A DNA stretch of 64,000 bases from Parietichytrium sp. I65-24A (lineage: Eukaryota; Sar; Bigyra; Thraustochytrida; Thraustochytriidae). The notes beneath the pieces are model-generated. The model did not search any database. It saw only the letters and a list, made by a program, of their open reading frames with translations, and was not told the origin of the DNA. Where the stretch lies: NCBI GenBank assembly GCA_012862575.1, contig BLSF01000001.1:682001-746000 (forward strand), written 5' to 3'. Position numbers and translations under genes: made by a program. Below, in pieces: positions 10,164-57,026 of this stretch (position 1 is its first letter; each line of letters begins with the position of its first letter).

Positions 10164-10399
10164 CTGACGACGACAGTTTATGATCATACGCTTGCAAGCC
10201 CCAGAACATAGCATTCCATGTTTTGGAATGTGAAAATGTTATTCTTGGATAGTTCACACCACCCCACGGAGCATTTTAGTTATTTAATTGGGAACAAGAA
10301 ATTCAATTTGCTTCGAAAGGACTGCTTACTCTTTTACGACCATTGAAGGTCAACGACTCAAGACAAACCGCCAAACTCGAGGGTGTTCTTCAAAACCAA

Positions 10400-12226
10400 C
10401 TAATTCCAGCTCTCCTGACGAAACTGCACCTGCTGTGTATCCGCCAGATCTTGCTGTACTAATTGGGCCATGAATTGAGCGTTCTCATCTGACACGGTGC
10501 GCGTCTTGGATTTGTTAGTGGCCTTATCAGCCTGAAGAGGACTATCATGATCAACGACTTTGCTGACTCCTACTTTGAGCGGCGAGACTGGCGGGCTGGT
10601 TATCCCAACAGCCTCCAGCTCTTCTTCTGTAGGGAACATGCTGAATCCTACCTGGGACAGCGCCCCTGGCGAAGTTTGACCCGCAAAGTAGTTCTTGCGG
10701 CTCAGTTGTGCTTTTTGAGCTTCTCTCCACTGTCGCTCGACTATCTCCTTGCTTGCTTGGCTGATTTCTGGCTTGAATGTGCATTCAACGTCGTGGCCGA
10801 AGCCGTCGCTCTCTACAAGCTCAATCCTTGCTTGCTTGAGTGCATTGTCATGGTGTAGCCTGTCGAAAATGCTCCTATTGGGGCTCTCCTCTGCTCCAGG
10901 CAATGATTCGCGCCGCTTTGCTTGCGCAAGCTCTTTGGACACGTCGCTCAGACTTGGCTTGAAAGTGCATTCCTCCTTGCTCGTTTCCCAATCCCTGGTT
11001 TCACTCTTGAGCTTGGCGAGCTCGTCCTCCTTTTTCTTGCGCGACATGAATTGCTTTCCGTCATTGTAGAGTCTGTCGAACGTCGCAGAGGTTGCCGCGG
11101 AGCTTTTGGTAGTTTGCACCGAGCCTGGGGATACCGGCGAAGTATCTGCTTCGACAGCCTTGCGAATTCTCGCCTCGTTAAATAACCTCGAAAAAACATT
11201 ACCAGGGCGCTTGCCATTTCCATCGTATGTCCGCCCTGCGAGCTGGCCAGAGGAGTTCTTGGCAAGCTTTGGAGAAAAGGTGCAATCTTTCATTTCACGA
11301 AGAAGACGCATTTCTTCGAGCGCCTGGTCCCTGTACGCGAGTTGCTGCTTGGAAGGTGACATCCTTGAAATTCCACGTGACGGGGAGCTCCCCGGCTCGG
11401 AGGCTGACGAGCTCCTGGGTCTCTGATTCGTCTGAGGCTGGAAAGTGAATTGGCTTTCGGACAATGCCAACATTTCGAGCCGTTTCTGCTCTTTGCGCTT
11501 GGCATGATCATATAAGTGCTGCAACCTCGCCTTTCCTGATGGGCCGCCGGCTTTATCATTCTTGTTTTTGTGTGCGAGCTGCTGCTGAGCCGCCTCAAGT
11601 TCGTATAGATGCTCTCTTTTCGCCTGTTGCGCCTCCCTGCGAAGAAGGGCTTCCTCGTATAGCTTGTTAAACCTTGACTTCGCACCTGCGCCGTTGCTCC
11701 GATCTAGTTTCGGCGACCGATTTATACGCGGCTTGAACTCGGGACTCTCCGCGGCCAACGTTTCTGACCGTAGCTGTTCCAGCTTCTCCCTGGACGCCTT
11801 CGCTTGTTGATACAGCCTGTCGAACCTGCTTCCATTCTCTGCCTCTTGACCACTTCTCTTCTCGTTCCTTTTCAACGTCTGCGGCTTGAATGTGCAGCCT
11901 TCCTCTTCCGCAGACCTTCCGGTACTCTCCCGCCTCCTCCGTGTGCTCTCTTTCCCCTGCTTGTATAGACGCTCCAGCCGCCCGCTACCACTCTCGCTCC
12001 CCGCACAATTGCTTCGCCTGCGTGTCCGCGAGGACTCTCCGTCCTCAGCTTGCGGGTCCTCCACGGACGCCTCTTGAGACTCCAGTTGGGACAGCTCGTC
12101 GGCCGCGGACCCTTGGGACGCCTGGGACGCCTCTTGAAACTCCACCTGGGACAGCTCGTCAGCCGCGGACCCCTGGGACACCTGGGACACCTGAGACACC
12201 TGGGACGACTCTGCCGCGTCGATCAT
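10400..12226 (-). CDS. Repeat protein with alternating FxRLYxxA and CTFKPxI motifs
   Basis: A protein of 608 residues starting at the first ATG (MIDAAESS). The frame also opens upstream from a TTG at 12271, which I do not use. The N-terminus is a Ser/Gln-rich repeat (SQVSQVSQ, then two GSAADELSQ units). The rest alternates a helical motif (FDRLYQQA, FNKLYEEA, LQHLYDHA, FSRLFNEA, FDRLYNDG, FDRLHHDN) with a short strand motif (CTFKPQTL, EFKPRINR, FTFQPQTN, CTFSPKLA, CTFKPSLS, CTFKPEIS), about six or seven pairs. This pairing occurs in many uncharacterised protist proteins, several linked to the cytoskeleton; function here is unknown. The protein is highly charged, with no membrane segment. Its 3' end faces the CAF16-like gene 236 bp away. 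Confidence 0.85.
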   Translation of the reverse strand: MIDAAESSQVSQVSQVSQGSAADELSQVEFQEASQASQGSAADELSQLESQEASVEDPQAEDGESSRTRRRSNCAGSESGSGRLERLYKQGKESTRRRRESTGRSAEEEGCTFKPQTLKRNEKRSGQEAENGSRFDRLYQQAKASREKLEQLRSETLAAESPEFKPRINRSPKLDRSNGAGAKSRFNKLYEEALLRREAQQAKREHLYELEAAQQQLAHKNKNDKAGGPSGKARLQHLYDHAKRKEQKRLEMLALSESQFTFQPQTNQRPRSSSASEPGSSPSRGISRMSPSKQQLAYRDQALEEMRLLREMKDCTFSPKLAKNSSGQLAGRTYDGNGKRPGNVFSRLFNEARIRKAVEADTSPVSPGSVQTTKSSAATSATFDRLYNDGKQFMSRKKKEDELAKLKSETRDWETSKEECTFKPSLSDVSKELAQAKRRESLPGAEESPNRSIFDRLHHDNALKQARIELVESDGFGHDVECTFKPEISQASKEIVERQWREAQKAQLSRKNYFAGQTSPGALSQVGFSMFPTEEELEAVGITSPPVSPLKVGVSKVVDHDSPLQADKATNKSKTRTVSDENAQFMAQLVQQDLADTQQVQFRQESWN

Positions 12227-12798
12227 GTTGGCTGAGCAAGTGCGGGGCGCGCACGCACGCGTGAAAAGCAACCGCGGGACTGTGGGTACTGTGGGTACTG
12301 TGGGGACCGCGCGTACTGTGGGGAATCTGGACTGGACAGAGAGGCTGCAGCGCGTACAGGGACGTGAGTGTACGTGAGTGGGACATACAGCACTCAGTAC
12401 ACTCAGTACTAAGTATTCAGTACTTGTACACCAATGTATAGTGGGACATCAATTTTCAAATCAGTTCCGTAGAAGTACTTAGTAAACTGAAATACCAGCT
12501 AAGCGGTACCGATTTGAACTATACAATACTACTGCTTCTTCCCTACTGCATACTTATAAAGTTTTATGATACAATAGCTAATGGCTAATAGCTAGCTAGA
12601 GAAACTTGAGTGACTGTTAGTTGTTTGATTTATTGGTCAGGTGCTAGTAGTAGTAGTAGAGAGAATAGTATGCAAGTTCCGAGACAGAAAGACGAGGTCT
12701 AAGCGAGATGGGAACTCAGCTGACGGCGATGATTTGATTGGGTCCTAATTGGTTCCAATGAGACGAATGTACGCGATGGGATGCAGTGGTCGAGGGGC
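12227..12798. other. Intergenic region with period-10 and AGTACT repeats
   Basis: Upstream of the 12226 start lies a GTACTGTGGG tandem array (12278-12323). It is followed by an ACTCAGTACACTCAGTACTAAG cluster (12389-12428), a TAGTAG run near 12647-12660 and a TAGCTAGCTAGA at about 12588. No gene is visible. Confidence 0.7.
12278..12323. repeat. GTACTGTGGG period-10 tandem repeat
   Basis: Four imperfect copies of a 10-base unit, GTACTGTGGG, 50-100 bp upstream of the minus-strand start at 12226. The same unit recurs upstream of RAD51B and RDM1 in this window. Confidence 0.8.
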
Positions 12799-13182
12799 TC
12801 AAATGGATTCCGAGGGGCTGGGCCGGGACCTGCGCTCGACGTGTCTCATGAACTCAGGGTCGTCAACGTCGAGCTTCTCCTCTGATTCGCTGCGAGCGGG
12901 CTTCTCGCGGGTCAAACTCTCGCGAACTGATTTCTCGCGAACGGATGCGCGGTTTGCCACCGCCTCGCCCTCCGCGGGGCCGCTCTCACTCGCGCTGGCG
13001 CGTCTCTGGTACAGCCCCCACGCAAGTATCCCCGTGAGCAAGAGGACCATGAGCACAACCGTGACAGTAACTCCAACGCCGTCATTTACGCCGTCCGTGT
13101 CGACGTCATCAGGGAGCGTCGAGTTCAAGATCCTCGACCTCGCCGCCAGCCCTCGCATGTACTTCACTCCAGTCAGAGACAT
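12799..13182 (-). CDS. Small single-pass membrane protein of unknown function
   Basis: From the first in-frame ATG (13182) the product is 127 residues. The frame stays open upstream to 13332 but only with a GTG. A good acceptor-like CTTTGCAG at 13310-13303 followed by a Glu-rich stretch suggests a real upstream exon that I cannot locate, so the 5' end is uncertain. One clear membrane segment (VTVTVVLMVLLLTGILAWGL) is followed by a basic, Ser/Glu-rich tail with RESLTREKPARSE-type repeats, suggesting a cytosolic C-terminus. I recognise no family. The opposite-strand frame 12749-13324 has no plausible features and looks like a shadow. Confidence 0.5.
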   Translation of the reverse strand: MSLTGVKYMRGLAARSRILNSTLPDDVDTDGVNDGVGVTVTVVLMVLLLTGILAWGLYQRRASASESGPAEGEAVANRASVREKSVRESLTREKPARSESEEKLDVDDPEFMRHVERRSRPSPSESI

Positions 13183-13769
13183 GTCGCCCGTCGAAACCGA
13201 CCTCGCCGCAGAGTTGCGCCTTTGCAAAAAACTTATCGTCCGCGCCGCTGCGACTGCACTCGCTCTCCTGTCCTCCTCTTGCTCTTGCTCTTCCTCCTCC
13301 TCCTGCAAAGACAATGCACTGTGAGTACTCACTGTGTGTGTACGTACGTGCGTGTACGTGTACGTGTGCGTGTACTACATATGCTGGACGTGGGTGTCCT
13401 TGTCCTTCTTGTCCTTCATCCTTCTTCTTTCACAAGTTATGTTATCTCGCTCATTTGGCTGCTAGTGAAGTACTCTAATCTCCTTTCCCCCGGCTTAGGA
13501 CTCTTAGGACCCGCTCCGCATTCCCAGCTTGCTTCTGTCAGGAATCCCTTACCACCTGCTACCTCAACCTTTAGCACCGGGGGGGGGGCCACGCGATGTA
13601 GGATAACCTATCTTTATCTTTAAGAATCCTGCGTTTTGGTCCGCCAACAGGTGTGCACCGAACGACGAACCGTTCTTTATAAGCCAAGCTTAATGCATGT
13701 TAATCTCGATTAGCTCAGGCGTAGAGTGGCCTACGGAGGACGCGCTGTGGTGGCGTGAGTGGCGTGCAT
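13183..13769. other. Intergenic region with TACGTG microsatellite
   Basis: It holds a GTGTACGTACGTGCGTGTAC microsatellite (about 13334-13376) and a run of 10 G (13579-13588). The region just before the deaminase start contains GTGGCGTGAGTGGCGTGCAT. No other gene is seen. Confidence 0.6.
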
Positions 13770-15944
13770 ATGCGTGCATCGTGCATCGCGGAAAATTTCC
13801 GCGATTCACAGGCGATGGGCGAGGAGGGCAGCGGGGGGAAAGAGGCATGCGCAAGTGCGGCTCTGCTCGTGCAAGGGAAGGCGGCGAGCAAGAATGCGGT
13901 GATACCGGGCGTTTCAGAGCTGCATGGCGCGCTGGAGGAGGTTCTTGCTCCACGGTATGGGAGGAACTGGGAGTTGGAATACAAGCCACCAGCACCGGAA
14001 AAGAGGTCTTTCCGGGCCAAAGTTACCGGATTACAGCGAGATGTAGATGATTCGGAGGTTCCGGGGTCTTCAGATGCGAGCACTGTTCAAGGGTGGGAGA
14101 TTAGTTTCCGACTCGTTCCTGTGGACTCGAAGAAGCGGAAGGCAAGAGAAGAGTCTGCAAGAGATGGTGATGCGAGGCCCGCCTTGATTATGAAGGCGTT
14201 CCAGAATCACAAGTATGGGGCTGTTCAACTGTGCGGAGTTGGCCTTGACGGGAACTGCTTAGGGGATGTTCTTGAGGCCGCTCGGCAGCAATCTGTTGGA
14301 CAACTAAACCTCAGTGACAATAAATTCGACTCTGCAAGTGCGGAGCGCATATTAGATTTGGTGGCAAGAGAGCCTCAGATCACAGCCATTGAGCTTGGAG
14401 GGAACCCTGGCGTTGACGAATCGCTCAAACACAAAATCAATGGCGCGGCCGCTTTCAACTCACTTTTAAATTGCAGAGGCACGTTCCCCGATTTGAGATC
14501 TCTAAATGAGCGCGAGCTTGGAGACGAAGGTGTCCGGTATCTATGTGAGCGGCTACTGGAGTCTGACAAGCAGGCTCCAGAAGATCTCCCAGTATTAGGG
14601 ATTGCCAAAGCGAAAATCGGCGCTTTAGGCGCAAAAGCGATCGCGTCATTCATGAAAACGAGGAACTCTGCACTTGTGGACTCCATAAGACTTTTAGAAG
14701 TATATAGCAATATCCCGTCGCACGATTGGGCTCATGAGTTTGCCTCGGTTCTTCGAATGAACAAGACATTGACGAGTCTCGATTTGGGGGGCAACGGCAT
14801 CGATGACGAGGACTGTCTGGAGATTTGCTCCTCACTTGAAGAGAATGGAACGCTCCAAGAATTACATTTGGACTACAATTCCATTACCGATGTGGGGGCT
14901 CGAGCCTTAAGCTTGGTTCTTGATCAATGCGCACTTCATTCTCTGTGGTTGCATGGAAATGAATCCATTTCAGAGCTAGAACTTCGCAAGCTCGATGATA
15001 AGCTTTTCAGAAACCGCCGTAAAAATATCCCCCTACTTTCGAGAGAAGGCGCAGTTCAGAATTTAAGCGATCGCATTGCTGCGGAGGTAAGGCGGGGACC
15101 ACCACCAAGAAATGGTGCAAGCATGGCAGACAAGATAGCACATGCATCCATACACAAATACCTTGAGCTATGCGATGAGCATGCCCAATCCGTACATGGG
15201 CAATTCGTCCTCTCCTGCATTGTGATGTGCGACTGTTCAGGCGATAGCGACGAGGCGGTGTCTGTTGTAGCGATGGGTGCAGGCACGCGTTTTGTTGACT
15301 CCTACTTGCTCGAGCTTGATCGTGACGCGGAGCGAGTGAGAGACTCGCATGCTGAAGTGATTGCGCGACGAAACTTTAATCGCTTTCTCGCTGCGCAGAT
15401 CTTTGCCGTTCGACGCCAGCCATCCAAGTGGTCTATCTTTGAGACGACAAGCCTTGCGCTTAAGCCGGGAATATCGTTTCACTTGTACACGAGCACGGCA
15501 CCATGTGGGGCTGCAAGCTCTCAAAGCTTGTCCACTGAACTCACCTGGGGCAAGGGTGGCGGAAGGACTTGCACTGAGTGGACGTCTGGAGCTCGAAAGA
15601 GTTGCACAGACAAGATCAAGCGCTGGTGCCGCGAAGGCTTGCAATCGAAGCGCTTGCGTTCGATTTGCGGGAAGGTTCCGTTGTCAGGTGTGGTCATTGG
15701 ACGCCGGTGGTCCCCACGATGTGTGGAGTGTTTTGGAACTGCCACAGGCACAACAATCTTGCTAGAGTCAAGTCTTCCCCATCGGGATCCAAATGCCCGC
15801 AGAGGCGACTCTGATTTGTGTATCTCATGGGTATTCGGGGAGGACGCCGTGCAAGTATACGATGGGAAAACAGGATTGCGCTTGGATCTCCAGTCTACCG
15901 CCATCTCCCCGTGCGCACTGGAGAAGGAGTGTAGTGCCTTGTAA
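13770..15944 (+). CDS. Leucine-rich-repeat protein fused to an ADAT1-type tRNA adenosine deaminase domain
   Basis: The frame gives 724 residues from ATG 13770, or 709 from ATG 13815. The second start is preferable if the palindrome at 13785-13805 is a promoter element. Residues 130-420 are ribonuclease-inhibitor-type leucine-rich repeats (LTSLDLGGNGI, LQELHLDYNSI, LHSLWLHGNESI). Residues 430-724 match the adenosine deaminase/editase domain of ADAT1 and ADARs: DSHAEVIARRNF with the zinc histidine and catalytic glutamate (H527-A-E529), APCG with zinc cysteine C579, and SCTDKIKRW with zinc cysteine C612. ADAT1/Tad1 makes inosine at A37 of tRNA-Ala. All catalytic ligands are present, but the segment between the two cysteines is much shorter than in ADAT1 and lacks the usual KPGRGD loop. 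Substrate is therefore inferred. Confidence 0.88.
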   Translation: MRASCIAENFRDSQAMGEEGSGGKEACASAALLVQGKAASKNAVIPGVSELHGALEEVLAPRYGRNWELEYKPPAPEKRSFRAKVTGLQRDVDDSEVPGSSDASTVQGWEISFRLVPVDSKKRKAREESARDGDARPALIMKAFQNHKYGAVQLCGVGLDGNCLGDVLEAARQQSVGQLNLSDNKFDSASAERILDLVAREPQITAIELGGNPGVDESLKHKINGAAAFNSLLNCRGTFPDLRSLNERELGDEGVRYLCERLLESDKQAPEDLPVLGIAKAKIGALGAKAIASFMKTRNSALVDSIRLLEVYSNIPSHDWAHEFASVLRMNKTLTSLDLGGNGIDDEDCLEICSSLEENGTLQELHLDYNSITDVGARALSLVLDQCALHSLWLHGNESISELELRKLDDKLFRNRRKNIPLLSREGAVQNLSDRIAAEVRRGPPPRNGASMADKIAHASIHKYLELCDEHAQSVHGQFVLSCIVMCDCSGDSDEAVSVVAMGAGTRFVDSYLLELDRDAERVRDSHAEVIARRNFNRFLAAQIFAVRRQPSKWSIFETTSLALKPGISFHLYTSTAPCGAASSQSLSTELTWGKGGGRTCTEWTSGARKSCTDKIKRWCREGLQSKRLRSICGKVPLSGVVIGRRWSPRCVECFGTATGTTILLESSLPHRDPNARRGDSDLCISWVFGEDAVQVYDGKTGLRLDLQSTAISPCALEKECSAL
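13785..13805. promoter_or_regulatory. Perfect 21-base palindrome near the deaminase start
   Basis: The sequence reads ATCGCGGAAA, a central A, then TTTCCGCGAT. The TTTCCGCG half resembles an E2F-type core. It lies between the two candidate ATGs of the LRR-deaminase gene. Confidence 0.4.
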
Positions 15945-16661
15945 AGTGCGGACTCTAGCTAGCTAGGCTAGAGCGACAAATCTAGGGCGTGATGCTCGCA
16001 ACCATACACAGGACATCACGTGCAGTTGAAGACTCGGGACGTCAAAATCACTCGTCTTTGTTGTAAAGAAAAGTTTACACCCGTTTGGGGATCATCAATC
16101 AGAATGCACATTCGATTTTTATAATTGAAAACTATAACCAAAGAGAGCAAAGTCGCTTCATTTCCCTGCCTCTCACCTCGACGACGATGCAATAGTGCAG
16201 GATTGCGGTTGCGGTAACACGGGTCTTCTCCGTCCAGCGCCGCAACCGACATGTTTATTCCACTCAACCCCACAACTTGCAGTGCGAATTTGCTCCTTTG
16301 GTATGCACTGACTGACTTTCTTTGGCCGTTCAATTCTTCTTCATCCGTCGCTTCCTTTGCGTTTTTTGTTTGTCTTTTTCTTGTTCTGGAGTTTCCGTGT
16401 GTTTTTTCCAAGTATTCTTGCTGTACTTTTGCGCTGCGCCGCTCCTTTCTCCTTTCGCAAAACTCTTTGTTCACGCCAGCTTGTGGGCCCAATCCCCTTT
16501 TTCAGGGGCCGGAACATTTTGATTAGGTTCAAAAGCATTCCAAGAAAGCTCCTTCAGACGTCAATCCCACTTCAATTGAAGTAGTGTCACGACCTCGATG
16601 ATGCTTAATGCTGTTCATGACCCTCTCTCAAAAGCCAAGGCGGCGTCAACGACGGGTGAGT
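15945..16661. other. Convergent intergenic region
   Basis: It starts with a CTAGCTAGCTAG run (15955-15966) just after the deaminase stop, then T-rich sequence. The minus-strand frame 16016-16492 opens only with TTG and resembles nothing known, so I do not call it. Confidence 0.55.
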
Positions 16662-17393
16662 TTAGAAAGAAGCCTTTGCACCGCTCTTTGCCTCGGCCGG
16701 AATTGCGCGAGTCTGGTTCTTGCTTGGCGCAGTCGCTGACATTTTCGCTGCATAGCGCATGCCAGAAGACTTTGCCTCCTTTGATCCTGCCTTCGACCCT
16801 GCCTTGTTTGCGCCAGCAGTTGGTTTCGCTTCCGCTGGTTCGGCGCAGTAGTTGTACTCGGCCTTGTTGTGCATAACGAGTTCTCCATTGACGAAATAAA
16901 AGCTGTCGGACCGAGTTTCGAATGGGTTTGCGACCATCTCTTCGATCAACGACTCGTCTATCAGTGGCACAGCATACACTGCCTCCCAAGTATTGGTACT
17001 GCATGGAATGCAGAACCCAAAGGTGAAGTCGAAGCTCTTCACGAGCTGGTCCCTGAAATAATGGCGCTCGATCATCCTGAAATCTTCGATCTCATGATCG
17101 CCAACAGCGAAGGTCAGAGTTGTAGAGATGGTTGGTGTCCGCAGAGTATCTTCGCTGAAGTTGTACCTGATTTTTCTGTAGCTGTCCTCGCTGAGATTTG
17201 CCAAAGAGGAAGGAGCGGCTGCGGCAGCGTTCTCGCGCGACACGTCAAAAATAGTGCGCTTCGTATCGTAATCGCGGATCTTGAAGCTGAGGAACTCGAT
17301 TCCATATCGATTGGCGCTCAGTGGGCACAAGAATCCCTTGGTGGGCGCCTTGAGGCGGAGAACCTCTTCTGGGGAGACAGACTTTGAGCTCAT
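16662..17393 (-). CDS. UNC119: UNC119-family lipid-binding chaperone
   Basis: A protein of 243 residues starting at ATG 17393. Residues 7-185 match UNC119 along their whole length: SPEEVLRLKAPTKGFLCPL at the start, FLSFKIRDYDTKRTIFDV, then the hallmark DFRMIERHYFRDQLVKSFDF and FGFCIPCSTNTWE, and finally SDSFYFVNGELVMHNKAEY. UNC119 proteins have an immunoglobulin-like beta-sandwich that binds myristoylated N-termini and carries such cargo, often to cilia, with ARL3-type GTPases releasing it. PDE6D is the related prenyl-binding alternative, but the ERHYFR..L.KSFDF..GFCIP block favours UNC119. The C-terminal 60 residues are a low-complexity Lys/Ala/Ser tail of unknown role. Red algae lack cilia, so this gene bears on the identity of the organism. 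Confidence 0.93.
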   Translation of the reverse strand: MSSKSVSPEEVLRLKAPTKGFLCPLSANRYGIEFLSFKIRDYDTKRTIFDVSRENAAAAAPSSLANLSEDSYRKIRYNFSEDTLRTPTISTTLTFAVGDHEIEDFRMIERHYFRDQLVKSFDFTFGFCIPCSTNTWEAVYAVPLIDESLIEEMVANPFETRSDSFYFVNGELVMHNKAEYNYCAEPAEAKPTAGANKAGSKAGSKEAKSSGMRYAAKMSATAPSKNQTRAIPAEAKSGAKASF

Positions 17394-17943
17394 TTTAAAA
17401 CAAAGAAAACCCGCGTTCCGAATGTACTGAAATGCCGTTGAGACCGCACCTTGTGCCTTGAAACGAAGTTTAGTTCAACGTTCGCGACTCGCAACTCCTC
17501 CGTATCAACAACTCCGTTGTCCTGCGCGCGTCGAAGAACAGCCCGGTCTCGAAGCCCACGCGCAACCTTGCCTCCACGCACGTCGCCAGCTGGTACACTT
17601 TTCGTCTTTGCAATGCAGTGAGTCTGTTGCTTCTCGAGTGGCTTTGCTGCTCTTTGCTTCAGTGCTGTCTGACACTCTGAGAGGGCGGCAATGGACGAAC
17701 TTCGAATGCCGCAACATCAACAATGTCGTTGCATCTCTCTCTCTCTCGCTCCTCTAACAGACACCTCGCCTAGGCTAGCTCGTTCTACTACTTCTAACGG
17801 CGCCTTCCCCTTCCCTCTACAACACTGCTCCTTTTATCTCTCGCGCCCTCTCGCGCCCTTTGCAGGAATCGTCCATCTCTCTACCGGTACTCAGTACTCA
17901 GTACCTCCCTCCCTCTCACTCACATTCTCTCATTCTCTCTTAT

Positions 17944-17975
17944 TCGCTCACTCACTCACTCACTCACTCACTCCC
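17944..17975. repeat. CTCA tetranucleotide microsatellite
   Basis: About seven copies of CTCA/ACTC in tandem, within a longer pyrimidine-rich stretch that begins near 17905. Confidence 0.8.
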
Positions 17976-19253
17976 TCATCGAAGGAGGTGGATAGAGAAA
18001 GCGCACAATGTAGAATGTAGAAAGTGGAATAAACGATTCAAGTTAAAGTTAATTTACAATAAGTTATGCATCCATCCGCGACTTGGGATTGTGAGAGGAG
18101 ATGTAAGTTAGAGGAAACGAAACAATGAAAGGAGGCTAGGCAAGTTCTTTCAGTTGTTTTTAGTACGGACAGTGTCTTGTACATCCAGTCAACATCAGTT
18201 CTACTAAAGAGGAAAGAAAGAAAGAAGCGCTGTTGAGATTATGCACGGAACTCTTAATCCGTTCATTACCATTTATTGTAACGCCGCAGCAATTGACCAA
18301 CACTATCCCTTATCGTTGCTGGTAATTGAGGCTGTATTGAAACGGTCAGGAAGGAGGCGTTGGACTACTTAAATTCCTCCTTAACCTGCTTGGCCACCAC
18401 CGGCTTACAATTATCGATATTTAGATTACACTAGCTAGACTCTAATACATCTCATGTTATTTTCACTGATCCTGAGTCTGGTGTGAATACAACCGATTTC
18501 TGTGGCAAGTACTAGTCGACCTGATAACGAGCAATGTAATGAAAACACCATCACTCTAATGCTCGTAACGTAAATGGTCTGTCTGCTCAGTAGATCTACT
18601 CAGTACTGCAATCATGTGCACTGGAGCAAAACTGAGCTGGCAGTGTAAAGTGGTTCAACAATCAACAGAGCAGAAGGCGCGCATCTTTCGAAAGAATTCT
18701 TCAAAAGAATTCAGAATAAATCAGAATAATTGTCTCAGAAATTGAGAAAAACATTGGGAGTTTTGGGAGTTTGTAATGCGCACAAGAAGGGGGATTGTAA
18801 TTCGCGAAATGTTTTCCAAGGCCATCATCACCACCACGCTCTTTAAAGGTCGTTCTTCTTCCGTGCTCGTAGAATCGTAGAAGCTGGCATCTGAATTCTG
18901 AATTCTGGTTGACGCAAGCTAGATGGAGCCTGACGCATGAGACGACTCGGATATCAAAGTTTTAACGGCAACCAACCGATAGGAGCAGGAATGCAGTCTT
19001 GGTTCATCATGCCTGGGGCTCCAGCTCTCTCAGCCCAGAGGGCATTCAACCGATATCGCAGTGGTCAGCGCCGAGAACATATCGGTTTGGAAGTCTCTCA
19101 AGCACTCCACGCGTGGGGGTTGAACCAACCAACGAAGAGTACGCGAAAACTTGCGCAAAAGGAAGATGGCGGGCAAAAGTACCGATTACTCATACTGAGG
19201 CCAAGATATGGTATCATTTTGCACCATCCTGAAGGCTCCTCCAAAGAGTATCT

Positions 19254-19760
19254 TTAGCATGCACACAATGTGCCACCACTCAAATTGGAAGAGGATCTAA
19301 CAACCGGGGCGGGCGGGAGCTTTGAGCTATTTTCGCAAGCCGCACTGGAAATCTTAATCGTTGCAGAGTCAGGCAAGTTCGCCAGCGAATAACGAAAGCT
19401 TGGCATTCCTAATTTCAGAAGCGTTAATCTGGAATCAGCACTAATCGTCGTTGATATCTCAGAGCAGCGGAACCCATTCGAACTTATGATCAGAGGCAGA
19501 CGCCACACTCTGGGCCGTATTCGAGAGAACCCAGCGACAAGATATTCTTGATGCAATTTCCACGCAAGTCCAACCGGACTGGACCTGTTCGCATGTTGCC
19601 AAATACTTGCATCAAACTTTAGTTGCCTCCAAAAAGCCGTGGATGATGGGATGTCAGTGTTTCCCTGCTCAACATATACACCGAGAACTGGGCATCACCT
19701 TGCCCTTTTGATTCGCAGCGTGCTTTATCACGTATTGGTTTGATGGGTATTGCAAGGGAG
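19254..19760 (-). pseudogene. Possible decayed coding remnant, origin unknown
   Basis: On the minus strand a readable stretch begins near 19760 (LAIPIKPIRDKARCESKGQG, then DAQFSVY). It continues after a one-base frame change near 19690 as VEQGNTDIPSSTAFWRQLKF and runs open to about 19254. Codon use looks protein-like, but there is no ATG, and stops and frame breaks interrupt it. The P-x-KPIR block followed by a Cys-Ser and F-x-VY resembles the catalytic core of PiggyBac-type DNA transposases, but the following residues do not clearly fit. I treat it as an unassigned remnant. Confidence 0.2.
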
Positions 19761-20188
19761 TGTGTCACTTGTCGAAGAATCTATCTTTCTTTCTCAATTT
19801 TGCATTAATTTAAAGTATATTCTCTTGAGCTGAATCGGACGAGGCGGCGACGAACTTCGTCGGTAGAGTATGCGAGGGTGGTGCGTCATGGCGGATTCTC
19901 CGCGGAACACGTGACTCACATATTCTTTCTCGAGCGGTACGTGTAAGTTTGACGGGACAACTTGGCTTCATGCGGTAAGATTCAGCTCTCGCGAGAGCGG
20001 AGTAAAAGCAACCATCAGTTGCCTGTGAATCGCGTATTGCGTAGATGAGCTTCCTTCAAAAGGGCAGCTCATAGATTGACTCGCCAGCATGATGTGCGCG
20101 TTGCCCCAACGAATGCTGTGCAAAGCTTCTCTCCTCGGATGACCTCTTCAAATCTTCATCTCAAATTCCAAAAGAGATGAACGACAAA

Positions 20189-20566
20189 TCAAACGTTGTC
20201 AAAGGAGTGTCTCGAGGTCGGCACGATGCTAGTCAGCACCTCGTTCTCTGCGAGATCTCTCATGAGGATAAATCTCGAAATATTATCTCGCGCTCTTCCG
20301 AGCAGAGATCTGTTTTCCTCTTGCAATCGTATTGACTCCTTTGCCGGCCCAAAGACCCGCTTGAGTTTCTCCAGCTTCGTCTGTCGCCTCTCTAGCTCGC
20401 GCCTGAGCTTGATCTCGGCAAGTTGCGACTTGCTGTACCTTTTTGGCTTGCAGCACGCCAAGTGAGGTATGATGCACCTGAAACAAATAAAGTACGTCGC
20501 CACGAGCAGGACAAATCCGAAAAACGCCCACCCGGCGATCGCCACCGAATGTCGCGTGCCAGACAT
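20189..20566 (-). CDS. Small single-pass membrane protein with a basic coiled coil
   Basis: From ATG 20566 the product is 125 residues (MSGTRHSVAIAGW). The frame is open to 20635, but the extra 23 residues add nothing recognisable. A strong membrane segment (residues 8-28, VAIAGWAFFGFVLLVATYFI) is followed by a Cys-rich juxtamembrane stretch (CFRCIIPHLACCKPKRY) that could be palmitoylated. After it comes a highly charged helix (AEIKLRRELERRQTKLEKLK) likely to form a coiled coil. I recognise no family. It is divergent from the TPR-SKICH-HECT_2 gene, with a 1.2-kb shared upstream region. Confidence 0.6.
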   Translation of the reverse strand: MSGTRHSVAIAGWAFFGFVLLVATYFICFRCIIPHLACCKPKRYSKSQLAEIKLRRELERRQTKLEKLKRVFGPAKESIRLQEENRSLLGRARDNISRFILMRDLAENEVLTSIVPTSRHSFDNV

Positions 20567-21754
20567 CCTTCTCCGACAAGCACCCAAGCTACTTGTGCGC
20601 TCGCACTCAGACACGGCAGTGCCGCCGCTTCTCACCGTCCTCTCCGATCACGGAATCGCGGCCTGGCAAGCGAAGTAAATGGCGAAGCAGCGCGCCGCGT
20701 CCAGTGGCATGTAGTGCGTGTCACCGAGAGCGAGGCGCAAGAAAACCAACTTGGGTTCGCCTCATTGGCAGCACAACCAACACGACCAAGGCGACCAAGG
20801 CGGGGCACGTAGTCTGGGCTGAGCCCTGGCGTTCGTTCCAATGTAAGTGACGGAGCCAATCAGCTCTCTGGTCTAGAGGGCTCCGGATACAGCGGCCAAG
20901 AGAGAGAATTTGGCTTTCCACGGGAACGTGCGAGCTTTAAACCTAAAAGAGACATAAAGCAAGGAACATAACAACAGAACAGACAGCAAAGCGAAGAAAC
21001 ATGCAAGAGCTATCGACCGCGACATCCGTGAGCCCTAAATATCTAGTTTGGAATCCTGCGCCTGAGCTTTTTGGAGTGCATCGTGCATCTTTTGTAGCCT
21101 CTGAGTACCGTGGCCATGCTCCTCAATGACAAGAATTGATTAATTGAAATGAAAGTTCAACTCACAATTAATATGATCAATGATTTCTCCTTTTTTGTCA
21201 CGTTCAAAGATCAAGTTCAAGTTCAAGCTAAAGTTCAAAGTTTCGTGAAATTGCAACGGATCAATTGAGCGAACATACGTGAAGCAGATCCCAGAATCTC
21301 CCAATCCATTCGCGATACTCTAGTACTTCAGGAGCCACTCTTGAACCATGGCAATGCCATCGCGAGTAACCAGCGCTATCAGTACTCGTAAGTGTCCTCG
21401 GGGACAGAAGAAAGTGCGGTGAGGCGAGGAGGAAAGCCGCAGCTATAGACCACTACCGATACCTAGCACAGCGGTGAACAACGCGAAGCTTCGCTGCCAG
21501 TGAACATTGCGTTGCGCGCACTCAAAAAAGCAAGGCAAACGTTTGCGCCAGGAGCTCTGCGATTTATAGTCGAGCATAGGTGGAGCACTTGAGTCGACCG
21601 GATACATTAAAAGTTAGTGCGACCGTGTGGGGCGAAGCGAAGATTTTGAATTTTGGTTGGTCAGATTCGTCCATCTCGAACTCAGGAGACAACGTGTTTC
21701 ATTTATAGGGTTTCGTCTTGAGAGAACGGAGGAAAAGGAAACGGAGCAAGTGGA
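20567..21754. other. Divergent intergenic region
   Basis: It contains an ACCAAGGCG-type repeat (20775-20800) and an AAGTTC/AAAGTTC cluster (about 21209-21242). No gene is supported; the frames at 20423-20850 overlap the small membrane protein and its promoter and lack any recognisable product. Confidence 0.5.
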
Positions 21755-24262
21755 ATGCACCGCGCGAAGGGGAACTCTTTCCTGTCTAGCGGAGATGTCT
21801 CCAGCGCAGCGACGGAGTATCTGCGAAGTTTAGCAGCAGACGCTCATGATGAGCAGCATCTTGCGCTCTCAAACCTCTCTGCAGCATTGATGCGGCTCAA
21901 GATGCCATTTGCAGCTCTACTGGCTGCGCATGCCAGCGAGCGAGCGTCTGAAGAGATCACACCTTGGTTCGCAAAGGCCCTGGCCCGTCAGGCAATTGCT
22001 CTCGCCGCCATAGGCCGCCGTGAAGAGGCTGTGGGCGTAGCCACTCGAGGGGCTGAGCGTTGCGAGGCGGAGAAGGAGCGAAAGGAGATGCTTGCCATTG
22101 CGAAAAAATGCAATTTGGAAGCTGCCTCAGGAGCCCTCGCTCATGTGGCAAAAAGAAGTGAAGACGACTCCCAAGTAGGCGAGTGCCTTTCAGCGTTTGC
22201 CAGGCGTTGGCTCGCGGGGAAAGTGGGCGGAGATGAGCAGCAGAGTATTGTCGCAGAGATCGCTCGATTTGAGCAGCAAGTATCAGAAGCAGGGAATCTC
22301 GAAGAGGAGGAAACTCTCATGAGAGAACTTGCTGAAGCCCAAGCAGCAGTGGCTGCTGCGGAACGTGCCGTGCGCGACGCTGAGGCTGCTAAAACGACGG
22401 CTGCTGAAAATCTTGGCGCCGCAAGAGAAAGTGTGAACCCGGAAGAAATTGCAGAGCTGGAGAAAAAGAAGGAGCTGGTGGAGACTGCAGCGAATAGGCT
22501 TGCAGCTCAGCTTTCAACTTCCGCGCCTACCCCTCCACCGACGCAAAATGTGCGCGAGTCAACAAAAGACTCAACCACGACCAAATCGGCTGCTGAGCCT
22601 GTTGCTGCGAGGCCCTCGGATAGCATACACCAGGTATCACTCAAGGTATTCGAGCCAGTAGATAATAGCCCGGAGTTGGTCGTGGAGTGGGACTGGTTCG
22701 GGGATCGAAAGTCAGATTTTGGGTCCTCCGAGGACTTTATAGGGCTCTTTGCAGTGAACGAACTAGACCCAGATGAGTATTGGAATATGGAGGCGAACGT
22801 TGGCGCTTCAGGCAGGACGGGATCCCTTCGTATGAGGAAGCCGTCCACACCCGGCGCTTACGAGTTCAGGTATGTATGTCCCACCAGTTCGCGGTGTGCA
22901 GGGAGGTCGCAGACTGTAATGGTTCTTGAGTCCGGAGAGGTCCAAGTTGGCACCAACGTTGACTACCTTCTCGTCAAAGAGGCAAACCTTTTGATTTATT
23001 GGTTGTACCTTCCATTGCAGATTTCGAAAAAGATTGATATTAGCGGAACTCACCTGCCTGCATACGTTATGACAAATGATCCAGATCCGAGGGTTCCAAC
23101 GATGACGACCCGGAACGATAAACGCACCTTGCGAATATTTGCGCCTCGAAAAGCACCTTGCATGACTGGGTACGCTGGAAATGATCTGGCGGAATCTAGT
23201 ATAGAGAGGTACTTGGTCCCGTTTGTAGACATTGAATTCGAGGATCAGGTCGACATTGATAGGAGCACACTCTCTCTACATAATGGAGATTTTTTGGCAG
23301 CCAGACTTGCTTTTGCTAGCCATGCGACAGCCGCGATAGCCAAGCGTGAGCGCAAGGCTTTGCATCCGCTACCGGATGAACTGGAGCCTTCAATTTATCG
23401 AGACGGCATATCTTGCAAAGGTTGCAACGCGCAGCTCGTCAAGCCTGGCATTTCACGAGTTGCTCAGGCGAGCTACACGCCATGGGCGGAAATGCTGGAA
23501 CATTTAACCTGTGTTCCCCCTGAAGACTATCGTGGTGAGGGTACACCAAAGGCGTTCCGGGGCGAGGCATTTGGACCATCCAAAGGAGTAATCATGGTGG
23601 ATGAACCTTACTTTGACGTTTCTCCCGCGGATACGGCGTCCGAAAGTCTTGCACGTTGCGCGGAGCTTGAGGGGGTCGAGCTGCCGCCTGATGACACCAC
23701 GCTGGAAGAGCAATGGGCAATGCGCCCCATAGAATGCTGTGGGTGCCAGGCGTTTCTCGGGTACGCTCTTGAAGACAAAACTCAAAGTTGCGGGAAAACC
23801 TACGATGAAAGTTGTGAAAGCAGGGTGAAATACTTTCGATTGTACAAGCATACTATTCGAATTATTGCTTCTCCAACGCTGCTCAAGGATTATGACACCG
23901 TAGGGACATTCTTTGGCAGCAGAATCGCAAAGCTCTCCGATGTAAGAGAGATCCGGCGCGTTGTGGTCTCGGAGCCATTGCCGGAAAGCAGTGTTCAACT
24001 TTCAGAGTCGCGTCGATTCATTGAAATTAATTTGTGGACCGCGGACTCTTGGGCACGCAACAGCCGCACAAAGTCCATGTACCCCATTTTGAAGGTTACG
24101 TTCAAGTACGGTTCCGTGGAGGGCGGGCAGGAGAGCGCAGGGATATGGGCCACTTCCAAATTGTTCCAGGAGCTACAAGTTCAGCTTCTTCACTCCAACC
24201 TATGCTTTCCGCCATCAGCAAGGGAGTTTGGGGATGAGCGAGTCGGATTTCTAAAGTGGTGA
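21755..24262 (+). CDS. TPR, coiled coil, SKICH-like and HECT_2 (UBE3D/IPA1-like) protein
   Basis: A protein of 835 residues with four regions. Residues 1-115 are TPR-like (KGNSFLSSGDVSSAATEYL then AALMRLKMPFAALLAA). Residues 155-262 are an Ala/Glu-rich coiled coil. Residues 290-395 look like a SKICH/Ig-like domain (SSEDFIGLFAV, GRTGSLRMRKPSTPGAYEFRY). The C-terminal half resembles the HECT_2 domain of UBE3D and yeast Ipa1. It has CxxC pairs (CKGC at about 553, ECCGC at about 659), the PWAEMLEHLTC segment and LYKHTIRI. UBE3D/Ipa1 is reported as an atypical ubiquitin ligase-like factor linked to mRNA 3'-end processing; the role here is inferred. The four-part architecture is unusual. The start is the first ATG and fits a TPR beginning at once. 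Its stop lies 5 bp from that of RAD51B. Confidence 0.8.
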   Translation: MHRAKGNSFLSSGDVSSAATEYLRSLAADAHDEQHLALSNLSAALMRLKMPFAALLAAHASERASEEITPWFAKALARQAIALAAIGRREEAVGVATRGAERCEAEKERKEMLAIAKKCNLEAASGALAHVAKRSEDDSQVGECLSAFARRWLAGKVGGDEQQSIVAEIARFEQQVSEAGNLEEEETLMRELAEAQAAVAAAERAVRDAEAAKTTAAENLGAARESVNPEEIAELEKKKELVETAANRLAAQLSTSAPTPPPTQNVRESTKDSTTTKSAAEPVAARPSDSIHQVSLKVFEPVDNSPELVVEWDWFGDRKSDFGSSEDFIGLFAVNELDPDEYWNMEANVGASGRTGSLRMRKPSTPGAYEFRYVCPTSSRCAGRSQTVMVLESGEVQVGTNVDYLLVKEANLLIYWLYLPLQISKKIDISGTHLPAYVMTNDPDPRVPTMTTRNDKRTLRIFAPRKAPCMTGYAGNDLAESSIERYLVPFVDIEFEDQVDIDRSTLSLHNGDFLAARLAFASHATAAIAKRERKALHPLPDELEPSIYRDGISCKGCNAQLVKPGISRVAQASYTPWAEMLEHLTCVPPEDYRGEGTPKAFRGEAFGPSKGVIMVDEPYFDVSPADTASESLARCAELEGVELPPDDTTLEEQWAMRPIECCGCQAFLGYALEDKTQSCGKTYDESCESRVKYFRLYKHTIRIIASPTLLKDYDTVGTFFGSRIAKLSDVREIRRVVVSEPLPESSVQLSESRRFIEINLWTADSWARNSRTKSMYPILKVTFKYGSVEGGQESAGIWATSKLFQELQVQLLHSNLCFPPSAREFGDERVGFLKW

Positions 24263-53235: not shown

Positions 53236-54948
53236 CTACATATGGTGGCGGAAAAAGTAGAAAAAATTCTCAGAGAGGCGCTTGAAGAAAGGTCTTTGGT
53301 TCCATGTTGAGAGGGTCACGGGCTCGCAGTTTTGTTCAATGTCCAGCTGCATGCTCTCTTCCAGCTCTTGAGAGAACTTGCGGTCATGGATGACTGTGAC
53401 GATCTCCAGGTTGTGGTACCAGCTGCGATAGTCGAGATTGTAGGTTCCGAGCGTCGAGACGGCAGAGTCTATGACACAAAGCTTACTATGCAAAACTGAC
53501 GGCATGTATTCGTAAAGTTTAATCCCCTTGTTGAGCATGCTCTCATAGTATGCGTGCGTGGCCCAACGGACGGAATGCAAGTCGGTTTGGGTCCCAGGCA
53601 CTATGATTCGGACCTCTACTCCTCTATCAGCAGCACGATACAGCGCCCGACGAATGCTCGAGCATGGCACAAAATATGAATTTGCGATTGTGATTCGCGT
53701 TCTAGCAGCATTTATGGCACGGATGTAGCCGCGGCGAATACTGTTTCGCTCTGTAAAAGCATCATTAGTAAATATTTGAATATTCGACCCCAGACGCTGC
53801 CACTTCGATTTGACCTGTTCAAACATCAGCTCACGCTTACTCTGTTTGCGCGGTCGAACCAGATTTATCTTCAAACGGCCCTGCGCGGACCACCAGGCGC
53901 GCGATGGGTCTTGTTGCGTCGGGTCTCCTTCCGATACTTCGAATGGGAACAGCAAAAGTGTGGTCTCGGGGAGTGCTTTAAGTCTCTTGAGCAATGCAAC
54001 GTTCCATACGTCTTTCCCTTTGTCCACGGACAGAGCAAGTTTGTCGCGGAATGACTCCCACTTTTGTACTCCGCGAGTGAGCCTGTCCAAGAGAGATGGC
54101 ACAGATAAGGTGCTGTCATACTCCATCGAGCCTCGGTCATCGTGGCCAACAATAAGTGCAGACTCTAGTCTGTCGAATATCCCCGCAAACGCTGGCACCA
54201 CGGGTCCGTCAACACGCACCATGACATCGCGCCAAGCTGCACCTCCCAAAGAGCGTGGAAGCCAAAAATCACCGATGTTCATTCCGCCCGTAAACGCTAT
54301 CTGTCGGTCTATTACGATCATTTTGCGGTGGTCTCTGCGAACAATTCGGGACCATTTCCAAGGTAACATGCGGGAGAGGCTAGCTTTGAAGTCCGCGATT
54401 GACCTGAACGATTGTCTCCAGGGATGGATTGGGTTATATTCATGTACACGGCAACCGGCGCGGCGCATCGTTTCAAACATATCTTGGCTGGCCTCCATGC
54501 TTCCGAACGAGTCGTATATGACACGGACGTCGACGCCTCTCTGCGCAGCATCAATCAGCCTCCGCGCAACCGCCCAACCCGCCCGGTCCGACTCGAACCA
54601 ATACATTTCGAACTGAATCTCGCTTTTTGCGTCCTCAATGGCCTTAAAAATAGCAGGAAAACATTGCTTTCCGTTCTGCAGTGCAACGACCACATTCCCA
54701 CAGGGGAGATGGTGCTCGTGCTGTGGCGGCGAATTCGCCAACGTCCCTCCTGAGGACTTCTTCGTAAATGCAGATGACATTAGCGTCGGTAGCGACGTTG
54801 TCCTCTGCATTTCACCAAAGCAATGCGCGTATCGATTTGTCAACGACCCGGCGCCTCCTGCCGTCCTTTGTTTCGCCCCTTCGGCGCAGCTCATCACGCT
54901 TCTCGCAACTTTACTCACATAGTGCTTGGGGCATCTCCGAGCCCACAT
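53236..54948 (-). CDS. PLD-type cardiolipin synthase-like protein
   Basis: A protein of 570 residues with two phospholipase D catalytic motifs. HKD1 is DHRKMIVIDRQIAFTGGMNI (H207, K209, D214) and HKD2 is LHSKLCVIDSAVSTLGTYNL (H487, K489, D494). The region FEMYWFESDRAGWAVARRL and the spacing match bacterial-type cardiolipin synthase (Cls), which several protist groups use instead of the CDP-alcohol type. The N-terminus has arginines, lysines, serines and no acidic residues in the first 20 (MWARRCPKHYVSKVARSVMS), like a mitochondrial presequence, and lacks the bacterial membrane helices. Phosphatidyl transfer to make cardiolipin is the likely reaction, but other PLD-family transferases cannot be excluded. 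It is divergent from a CDP-alcohol phosphatidyltransferase gene. Confidence 0.85.
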   Translation of the reverse strand: MWARRCPKHYVSKVARSVMSCAEGAKQRTAGGAGSLTNRYAHCFGEMQRTTSLPTLMSSAFTKKSSGGTLANSPPQHEHHLPCGNVVVALQNGKQCFPAIFKAIEDAKSEIQFEMYWFESDRAGWAVARRLIDAAQRGVDVRVIYDSFGSMEASQDMFETMRRAGCRVHEYNPIHPWRQSFRSIADFKASLSRMLPWKWSRIVRRDHRKMIVIDRQIAFTGGMNIGDFWLPRSLGGAAWRDVMVRVDGPVVPAFAGIFDRLESALIVGHDDRGSMEYDSTLSVPSLLDRLTRGVQKWESFRDKLALSVDKGKDVWNVALLKRLKALPETTLLLFPFEVSEGDPTQQDPSRAWWSAQGRLKINLVRPRKQSKRELMFEQVKSKWQRLGSNIQIFTNDAFTERNSIRRGYIRAINAARTRITIANSYFVPCSSIRRALYRAADRGVEVRIIVPGTQTDLHSVRWATHAYYESMLNKGIKLYEYMPSVLHSKLCVIDSAVSTLGTYNLDYRSWYHNLEIVTVIHDRKFSQELEESMQLDIEQNCEPVTLSTWNQRPFFKRLSENFFYFFRHHM

Positions 54949-55802: not shown

Positions 55803-57026
55803 ATGCGGAACGCGTTGAACAAACTAGTGAAGCCGCTGGTGTCGGCGAACGCGGAGCTGTACGCGCGAGCAAATTCGGTGAGCGCAAAGTATCTCGACAA
55901 ACATGCACCAGAGATGCTTGCTACTGGCATCGGTCTTGGTGGACGAAAGTTTCGAGCCGCGGATGTGATTACAACGGCCAGAAGCGCGCTAATTGTGCCA
56001 ACGTTGGCACTGATGTCTCATGGGTACACAGCACTGCCGGCAGCGATGGTTGTGGCCAACGTATCTTTTGATTATGTGGATGGGATCGTGGCGCGACACG
56101 AGAAGCAAAGGCTAAAGACGATGGGCATCGTTCCAGGAACTGAGGGCGTGGATCCTGCAACACCTGGCATTTTGCCAACCGCGACTAGGGCGCGGTTGCA
56201 GGACACATGGGGAGCATATTACGACGCAATTGCTGATAAGGCCTTTGCTATTCCCCTTTGGGTTGCCTGTTTTCAACAGTCTCCGGAGAGCCCGGTCTTG
56301 CAAGCGGCGCTCCTGAGCCATGTTGCAATTGAAGTGTACAGCTCGTACGTGAGAACTCGAGCGTATTTCAGGGAGCCTTCGCCGATGAGTTGGTGCCCAT
56401 CGGAGGACCATTCTCAGTCGGCCCATCAATCTATTGCGCTGTCCGGAAGTGATAGCAAAGCTAAGGTTCAACCTGCCTCCTCGGTGGTCGCTGGGATCGT
56501 GGGCAAAACCAAACAGTTTTTGTCAATGTTCGGGACTGCAATGCTCTTAATCCCTGCAACGAAGACTGTTGGTGCTGCGCTCGTATGCGTTTCGGTTCCT
56601 CTTGCTCTCGTAAGTGTCATGCAGAAAGAGACAAGGGTTGTAGTATACACAGAATTAAAGAGTCCGGCGCTTGATGCGGCTAGCTTTGAGCTGATCCAGC
56701 AAAGCAAGGCTCTCGGGTCCAGATTAGTTGTTGGTGTTAGAACCGTGGCGGGAACAAATTTGGAGGCCTATGAAAATGCCGTTAAATCGCTCCAGCTACA
56801 CCCATCTGTCGACGCCGTCATCGACTCACAATATCTGCCTCCCCAGGGAAATATCGCAGACCCCACCTTCCTCAAGCGTTACGGGATTGATATAGTAGCG
56901 GTCCCTTCATGCGCCTCGTTTGAAGCAATAGATACTCGTCAAGATGACTGGAAGGCAGGCAAAATTGTACCTGTACAGCTTGGCGTCAGGATGTCCAATC
57001 CGTCAGCAAGTAAGGGAAAATGCTGA
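55803..57026 (+). CDS. CDP-alcohol phosphatidyltransferase fused to a degenerate cytidylyltransferase-like domain
   Basis: A protein of 407 residues from ATG 55803; the frame is open to a TTG at 55650, so a longer N-terminal presequence through an upstream exon is possible. The CDP-alcohol phosphatidyltransferase motif is present as FDYVDGIVAR (D90, D93, G94, A97, R98) and WGAYYDAIADK (G137, D141, D145). The spacer between the AR and G parts is 38 residues instead of the usual 8-9. Several hydrophobic membrane helices surround it. Residues 276-375 resemble the nucleotidyltransferase fold of ethanolamine/choline-phosphate cytidylyltransferases (VVVYTELKSPALDAASFELI, SKALGSRLVVGV, VDAVID, LKRYGIDIVAV). 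The HxGH motif is replaced by D291-A-A-S294, so this part is probably not catalytic. The product could be phosphatidylglycerophosphate, cardiolipin or another phospholipid. Confidence 0.82.
   Translation: MRNALNKLVKPLVSANAELYARANSVSAKYLDKHAPEMLATGIGLGGRKFRAADVITTARSALIVPTLALMSHGYTALPAAMVVANVSFDYVDGIVARHEKQRLKTMGIVPGTEGVDPATPGILPTATRARLQDTWGAYYDAIADKAFAIPLWVACFQQSPESPVLQAALLSHVAIEVYSSYVRTRAYFREPSPMSWCPSEDHSQSAHQSIALSGSDSKAKVQPASSVVAGIVGKTKQFLSMFGTAMLLIPATKTVGAALVCVSVPLALVSVMQKETRVVVYTELKSPALDAASFELIQQSKALGSRLVVGVRTVAGTNLEAYENAVKSLQLHPSVDAVIDSQYLPPQGNIADPTFLKRYGIDIVAVPSCASFEAIDTRQDDWKAGKIVPVQLGVRMSNPSASKGKC

Follow-up and report, generated by a model that had tools for sequence, protein, structure and literature searches.

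A putative CDP-alcohol phosphatidyltransferase fused to a degenerate CCT/ECT-type domain in the thraustochytrid Parietichytrium sp. I65-24A

The fusion of a CDP-alcohol transferase fold with a cytidylyltransferase (CT) fold is already known from AF2299 and from the bifunctional IPCT-DIPPS enzymes. AF2299 of Archaeoglobus fulgidus (PDB 4O6M and 4Q7C) is described as a CDP-alcohol transferase that bears a cytidylyltransferase-like domain on its cytosolic side (PMC4634129, PMC8633023), and this extra domain is known as a crystallisation chaperone. It was grafted onto phosphatidylinositol phosphate (PIP) synthases in which six interface residues had been altered to mimic AF2299; according to the same account, two of the altered residues, in the loop between transmembrane (TM) helices 2 and 3, sit inside hydrophobic pockets of the grafted domain, just as they do in AF2299 itself (PMC4634129). 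Here we describe a gene of comparable architecture in a eukaryote, located in a 64,000-nucleotide stretch of contig BLSF01000001.1 of Parietichytrium sp. I65-24A (the window). Its product, the window protein, has the intact signature of a CDP-alcohol phosphatidyltransferase in its N-terminal half and a C-terminal domain that is akin to the CTP:phosphocholine and CTP:phosphoethanolamine cytidylyltransferases (CCT and ECT) and has lost their catalytic residues. The same genome also holds a reciprocal fusion.

The gene is a single open reading frame (ORF) of 407 codons plus a stop. The genome (G000) spans 42.5 Mb on 172 contigs, and protein homology points to introns of the GT-AG type; a search of it with the window protein matched only itself, in one copy. 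The codon score of the ORF was 0.094, within the range of the 14 long window ORFs used to train the score (0.059-0.253), and was similar in the spacer described below (0.102) and in the C-terminal domain (0.082). It was negative in the other two frames of the ORF, and the matching frame of the minus strand contains many stops.

The N-terminal half matched PF01066 at 36.7 bits (cut-off 22, E 7e-9). The signature is complete (D90-YV-D93-G94-IV-A97-R98 ... G137-AYY-D141-AIA-D145); as the initial annotation had stated, all its acidic residues are present and its two halves are separated by a spacer of 38 residues, compared to 8 residues in seven, and 7 in one, of the eight other CDP-alcohol transferases of the genome. 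When 28 spacer residues were cut, the match improved to E 2e-12 and covered positions 3-149 of the 152 in the profile. The spacer was also considered as a retained intron, which was rejected given the lack of any GTRAGT inside it and its coding-like codon use. PF01066 matches in the genome number at least nine (E <= 1); one of these, on contig C8 (L008), is a CDP-alcohol transferase of uncertain kind (DCCDGQLARMYGSGSLVGRVLDGICD). A single-sequence AlphaFold 2 (AF2) model of the whole chain placed the TM helices roughly, with a mean predicted local distance difference test (pLDDT) score of 40. Hydropathy analysis missed the third helix, which counts against a six-helix topology.

Which substrates might this transferase use? 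Its nearest relative among the CDP-alcohol transferases of its own genome was a PgsA/cardiolipin-synthase-like protein (L002), with which hhalign gave 78.5% with the 28 spacer residues cut and 36.6% with them in place; the other seven reached at most 8.5% and 3.4%, respectively. The window protein and L002 are also the only two of the nine with a Lys directly after the fourth Asp. By motif register this position corresponds to R94 of Mycobacterium tuberculosis PgsA1; it is described as always basic, and as Arg in enzymes that use inositol phosphate (PMC6506517). Furthermore, SYVRTR of the window protein aligned to the SYIKAR stretch of M. tuberculosis PgsA1/PIP synthase (E 0.034), in which K135 and R137 are reported to line the acceptor pocket. 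Every NCBIfam cut-off for PgsA, cardiolipin synthase and PIP synthase was missed: the phosphatidylglycerol phosphate (PGP) synthase model TIGR00560 scored 26.8 bits with the 28 residues cut (cut-off 109.1), and the PIP synthase model NF045883 scored 34.6 bits (cut-off 170), with Lys146 where Arg is expected. No separate PGS1-like gene of the PLD superfamily was recognised among at least seven PF13091 and at least nine PF00614 matches in the genome, and a sequence search of the PDB with the whole protein or the transferase half gave no match at E 10. The transferase half thus weakly resembles the PgsA/cardiolipin-synthase branch most and, judging from its family, looks like a soluble-acceptor enzyme that uses CDP-diacylglycerol (CDP-DAG).

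The C-terminal half matched no family of Pfam or NCBIfam up to E 10, CTP_transf_like included, and was not among the matches of a genome-wide PF01467 search. The initial annotation had assigned it to the CCT/ECT line, and profile comparison bore this out. Against a profile of six CCT/ECT domains (A1), hhalign gave the domain a score of 39.3 (P 3e-6) and a probability of 87.8%, or 75.4% for the whole chain, while the best of 1000 shuffled sequences scored 22.0 and the reversed sequence 14.8. When 298 pieces of 132 residues were compared with this profile, taken from the long frames of the window and of fetched loci (excluding L010-L019, which came from CT searches or contain the reciprocal fusion gene), the domain took the top rank; the runner-up (25.3) was a piece that overlaps it, and no unrelated piece scored above 21.5. 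In pairwise Smith-Waterman comparisons with ten domains, Z was 9.8 for Plasmodium falciparum CCT, 6.1 for domain 2 of the genome's own ECT, 5.4 for PCYT2 domain 1, 3.7 for domain 1 of the own ECT, and 2.4 for both rat CCT and the reciprocal fusion. Since three other nucleotidyltransferase domains of the genome gave negative values (-0.7 to -0.8), the kinship is supported as being to CCT/ECT rather than to nucleotidyltransferases at large.

Several results weigh against this assignment. In hmmsearch, with a profile of seven CCT/ECT domains, the domain scored a marginal 11.6 bits, which none of 20,000 shuffles equalled (16,610 were reported, with a maximum of 10.7); its best single stretch (10.4 bits) was no higher than the best stretch of the top shuffle listed, and the score of the complete chain was only 7.9. 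Nor did all CCT/ECT domains show the kinship in pairwise comparison (Z -0.4 for PCYT2 domain 2). Both profile alignments begin at residue 296, past the stretch that had initially been quoted as the start of the CT domain. This stretch is therefore the weakest part of the match, although VVVYTELKSPALDAASFELI on its own fitted the profile in the claimed register (p ~0.005), and in no other of the five registers tried; residues 279-298 fitted the first CT strand and the HxGH columns at p 0.004-0.005.

The C-terminal domain retains few of the residues that define a working cytidylyltransferase. In an alignment of five intact domains, from which PCYT2 domain 2 and the own ECT domain 1 were left out, six of the 20 invariant columns are kept (L308, V310, G311, V312, V336 and G386, all of which look structural) and 14 are lost. 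Both histidines of HxGH are replaced, as had been noticed from the outset, and the description of the domain as a dead copy finds support well beyond this motif. The Gly of HxGH has gone, and the first strand loop has lost its Asp and its Gly; EER now reads ENA, and the Lys of KG is Ala. The Arg of RTxGxST has no counterpart (the aligned stretch is QL--GVRMSN), the CCT dimer arginine R140 aligns to Pro, and six residues are missing after the second strand. Replacing the first HxGH histidine of P. falciparum CCT with Asn (H630N) was reported to leave the enzyme practically inactive with a Km for CTP that was little changed (PMC5997628). With 14 of the 20 invariant residues lost, those of HxGH among them, and with no counterpart to the Arg of RTxGxST, cytidylyltransferase activity is very unlikely. 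A weak single-sequence AlphaFold model of the domain alone (pLDDT 50) suggested the order b-a-b-a-b-a-b-a-b, that of a CT domain minus its last helix. Foldseek searches of the PDB with this and the likewise weak whole-chain model found nothing at E <= 0.001, and no CCT, ECT or GCT entry was among the 50 matches listed for each.

The reciprocal fusion lies on contig C33, where one PF01066 and one PF01467 match occur ~0.9 kb apart on the same strand. An open frame of 125 amino acids takes in the final membrane segments as well as the first strand of the CT half; as it bridges both parts, the gene is a fusion whatever its exact splicing. Splicing at two GTAAGT...CAG introns (100 and 102 nt) gave a protein of 501 amino acids. 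Its CT half is complete (HIGH and RHDGMST; PF01467 E 6e-19), and the best PDB matches of this half were ECT and CCT. In its transferase motif (DAVDSKHAE...TEFFDHMCS), by comparison with those of two other transferases of the genome (DAVDGKQARR...GQLFDHGCD in L005 and DGSDGKQARR...GELMDHGVD in L007), both signature Gly residues, the Arg and the fourth Asp are changed; the last of these is the catalytic base suggested in PMC6506517. PF01066 scored 20.7 bits with hmmscan (cut-off 22) and 24 in the genome search, compared to 48.8 for L005. Judged from sequence, the C33 protein joins a live cytidylyltransferase to a dead transferase, the mirror image of the window gene.

PF01467 matches in the genome number at least nine (E <= 1), and a two-domain ECT lies on contig C5. 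From the ORFs at these matches, the weakest of which (L019, under the cut-off) was excluded, we judged the C33 domain to be the only CCT/ECT-type domain besides this ECT, and the sole CCT candidate recognised. Versions of the window fusion with an intact HxGH had been proposed as something to look for. No relative of the window protein was confirmed in the collections of viral (20 pattern matches) or prokaryotic (85) contigs, a result that has no bearing on other eukaryotes; the C33 gene, with its HIGH motif, is a different fusion in the same genome.

How might the two halves of the window protein work together? We propose a single membrane protein whose N-terminal half would be a working six-helix, soluble-acceptor CDP-alcohol phosphatidyltransferase. 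The donor would most likely be CDP-DAG; glycerol-3-phosphate is favoured as acceptor, giving PGP, with inositol phosphate second. The C-terminal half would be a former CCT/ECT-type domain that has kept its core, lost catalysis and probably lost CTP binding. If the chain exits the membrane after six helices, this domain would lie on the cytosolic side, beside the active site. Because the long insertion sits in the TM2-TM3 loop, where the domain of AF2299 docks, the dead domain could pack in an AF2299-like manner onto the enlarged loop, over the mouth of the active site. It would then be no enzyme and would serve as a lid, a scaffold or a regulatory or partner-binding module. We put the chances of this reading, a working CDP-DAG:phospho-alcohol transferase with a dead cytosolic-side domain as lid, scaffold or regulator, at about even. 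The initial annotation had seen in the domain a dead copy of the enzyme that makes the transferase's kind of substrate. The enzyme type stands, but CCT and ECT make CDP-choline and CDP-ethanolamine, and as the transferase looks CDP-DAG-using from its family, the domain would be no copy of the supplier of its own donor.

The initial annotation had suggested a sensor of nucleotides or CDP-alcohols, or a platform for substrate capture. As a ligand sensor, the domain would tune the transferase through retained binding of CTP, CMP, a CDP-alcohol or the acceptor. The little-changed Km of the P. falciparum H630N enzyme means that loss of the first HxGH histidine alone need not end binding. Here, however, the second histidine and the arginines of EER and RTxGxST have been lost with it, as have Asp and Gly in the loop of the first strand, the Lys of KG is replaced and six residues are deleted; with most of the motif positions gone, CTP sensing is disfavoured, and we regard a sensor as unlikely.

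Slightly less credible is that the domain is a functionless relic of a fusion, drifting yet still in frame. The number of invariant positions lost, and the seemingly missing final helix of the CT fold, are what such a remnant would show. The ~130 codons concerned are nevertheless free of stops, their codon use is that of the rest of the gene, and the hydrophobic pattern is preserved.

The domain might instead pair with an intact cytidylyltransferase, either the C33 fusion or the C5 ECT, as a heterodimer that tethers two CDP-lipid enzymes. The CCT catalytic domain is reported to dimerise (PMC5997628), and the C33 protein would provide an intact-looking, membrane-fused partner. However, the proline at the position of the dimer arginine speaks against such pairing, as R140H is reported to impair dimerisation (PMC5997628), and we consider it improbable.

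The gene itself may have been misread, with the GTAAGT at 56610 a true donor; the mature mRNA would then specify either the transferase alone or a protein that lacks the beginning of the domain. In six introns read in this genome (89-177 nt), the donor was GTAAGT in five and GTACGT in one, while GTAAGT occurred only once in the 32,040 nt of coding strand that 15 further long ORFs comprise. Its coincidence here with the domain junction is a real warning against our reading of the gene. In-frame introns do occur in the genome: a stop-free one (GTAAGT...GCAG, 177 nt, at ~1081-1257 of L024) demonstrates that ORF calling can read across introns here. However, the best in-frame acceptor, picked by eye at 56699, lies only 6 nt past the sole CTRAY within 56610-57026, whereas all six introns have a CTRAY whose A is 30-62 nt upstream of the acceptor (one has a second at 77). 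Moreover, the segment that would be removed matches the CT profile at its first strand, exactly in register (p ~0.005), and in-frame homology continues beyond it. Because of the acceptor spacing and the fit of residues 279-298, we conclude, with some doubt, that the ORF is unspliced, and hold a misread gene to be quite improbable. Alternative splicing at this site to a bare transferase is possible.

Least probable, and a long shot, is a complementary pair in which the C33 protein uses its dead CEPT fold as a membrane anchor for the only CCT-like domain of the cell, to which the window protein docks a live phosphatidyltransferase by way of its dead CT domain; if true, CDP-alcohol metabolism and anionic phospholipid synthesis would be coupled physically, perhaps allosterically, via pseudoenzyme domains.

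Table 1. Features of the window gene, its neighbour and the reciprocal fusion (window positions unless stated).
Feature	Position	Strand	Basis
Whole ORF: CDP-alcohol phosphatidyltransferase + degenerate CCT/ECT-type cytidylyltransferase domain	55803..57026	+	ORF translation, PF01066 match
CDP-alcohol phosphatidyltransferase (PF01066) membrane domain, ~six TM helices, residues 52-275	55956..56627	+	PF01066 E 7e-9; low-confidence AF2 helices
First signature half DYVDGIVAR (D90-R98)	56070..56096	+	
38-residue spacer H99-W136, TM2-TM3 (cytosolic) loop; no GTRAGT donor, coding-like codons	56097..56210	+	
Second signature half GAYYDAIADK (G137-K146), Lys after fourth Asp as in L002	56211..56240	+	
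Polar TM4-TM5 loop, residues 191-225	56373..56477	+	Helix boundaries of low-confidence AF2 model
GTAAGT, usual intron donor of the genome, at transferase/cytidylyltransferase junction; judged unused or minor	56610..56615	+	
CCT/ECT-derived cytidylyltransferase-like domain, residues 276-407	56628..57023	+	
D291-A292-A293-S294 replacing HxGH	56673..56684	+	
Bacterial-type (PLD-superfamily) cardiolipin synthase, head-to-head neighbour	53236..54948	-	PF13091, TIGR04265
CEPT-like protein + CCT/ECT-type cytidylyltransferase, contig C33 (L010; same gene in L014)	L010 1171-2100, 2177-2554, 2555-3079		

The divergent neighbour of the window gene, with 854 bases between the two ATGs, matched the cardiolipin synthase model TIGR04265 at E 1.3e-75 and 255.2 bits, below the 290-bit cut-off. 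If the window enzyme makes PGP, this cardiolipin synthase would act in the same pathway, a weak hint given that this is gene order in a eukaryote. Eukaryotes usually carry one type of cardiolipin synthase; this genome has the PLD-type gene and the CAP-type PgsA/cardiolipin-synthase-like L002. Elsewhere in the genome, searches for phycobilisome linkers and chlorophyll a/b-binding proteins gave no match at E <= 0.001. The PfaA model gave 13 matches, all below its cut-off (best 143.8 of 1010.1 bits). Repeated sub-cut-off PfaA matches fall in an open frame of 5583 residues on contig C66 (~8562-22499, part in L021), probably a giant polyketide or fatty-acid synthase.

Compared with single-fold enzymes, the window protein shares with PgsA, CAP-type cardiolipin synthase and PIP synthase the signature, the Lys next to the last Asp (also seen in L002) and the SYxxxR of PIP synthase, and differs from them in missing the NCBIfam cut-offs, in its 38-residue spacer and in its extra domain. 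With PCYT1A, PCYT2 and P. falciparum CCT it shares homology across the CT core, and the inactive CT domains of ECT, such as that of P. falciparum, are a precedent for dead ones; unlike in these enzymes, the catalytic motifs are lost and the partner is a transferase rather than a second CT domain.

Among fused systems, the window protein resembles AF2299 in combining a CDP-alcohol phosphotransferase with an extra CT-like domain, which in AF2299 is described as touching the TM2-TM3 loop (PMC4634129, PMC8633023). AF2299 is archaeal with an N-terminal domain, whereas the domain here is C-terminal and the spacer long. As AF2299 was not among the 32 PDB matches of the CCT/ECT profile, the two fusions may be independent in origin. 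AfDIPPS and the bifunctional IPCT-DIPPS of hyperthermophiles likewise join a nucleotidyltransferase domain to a CDP-alcohol transferase (PMC8633023, PMC4634129); theirs is N-terminal, in a bifunctional enzyme that makes its own donor, while that of the window protein is C-terminal, CCT/ECT-derived and apparently dead. In the C33 protein, as in the window protein, the CDP-alcohol transferase comes first and the CT domain is C-terminal. Among the titles and opening abstract lines listed for open-access PMC papers, we found no eukaryotic fusion of this kind, and within that scope what is new is a dead, CCT/ECT-derived C-terminal domain in a eukaryote whose genome also carries a reciprocal fusion. 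Together, a live-looking transferase with a dead CT domain and a live-looking CT domain with a dead-looking transferase suggest that the two folds were joined more than once, and for reasons beyond the channelling of a shared CDP intermediate. A structural or regulatory role of such an extra domain becomes testable here in a eukaryote.
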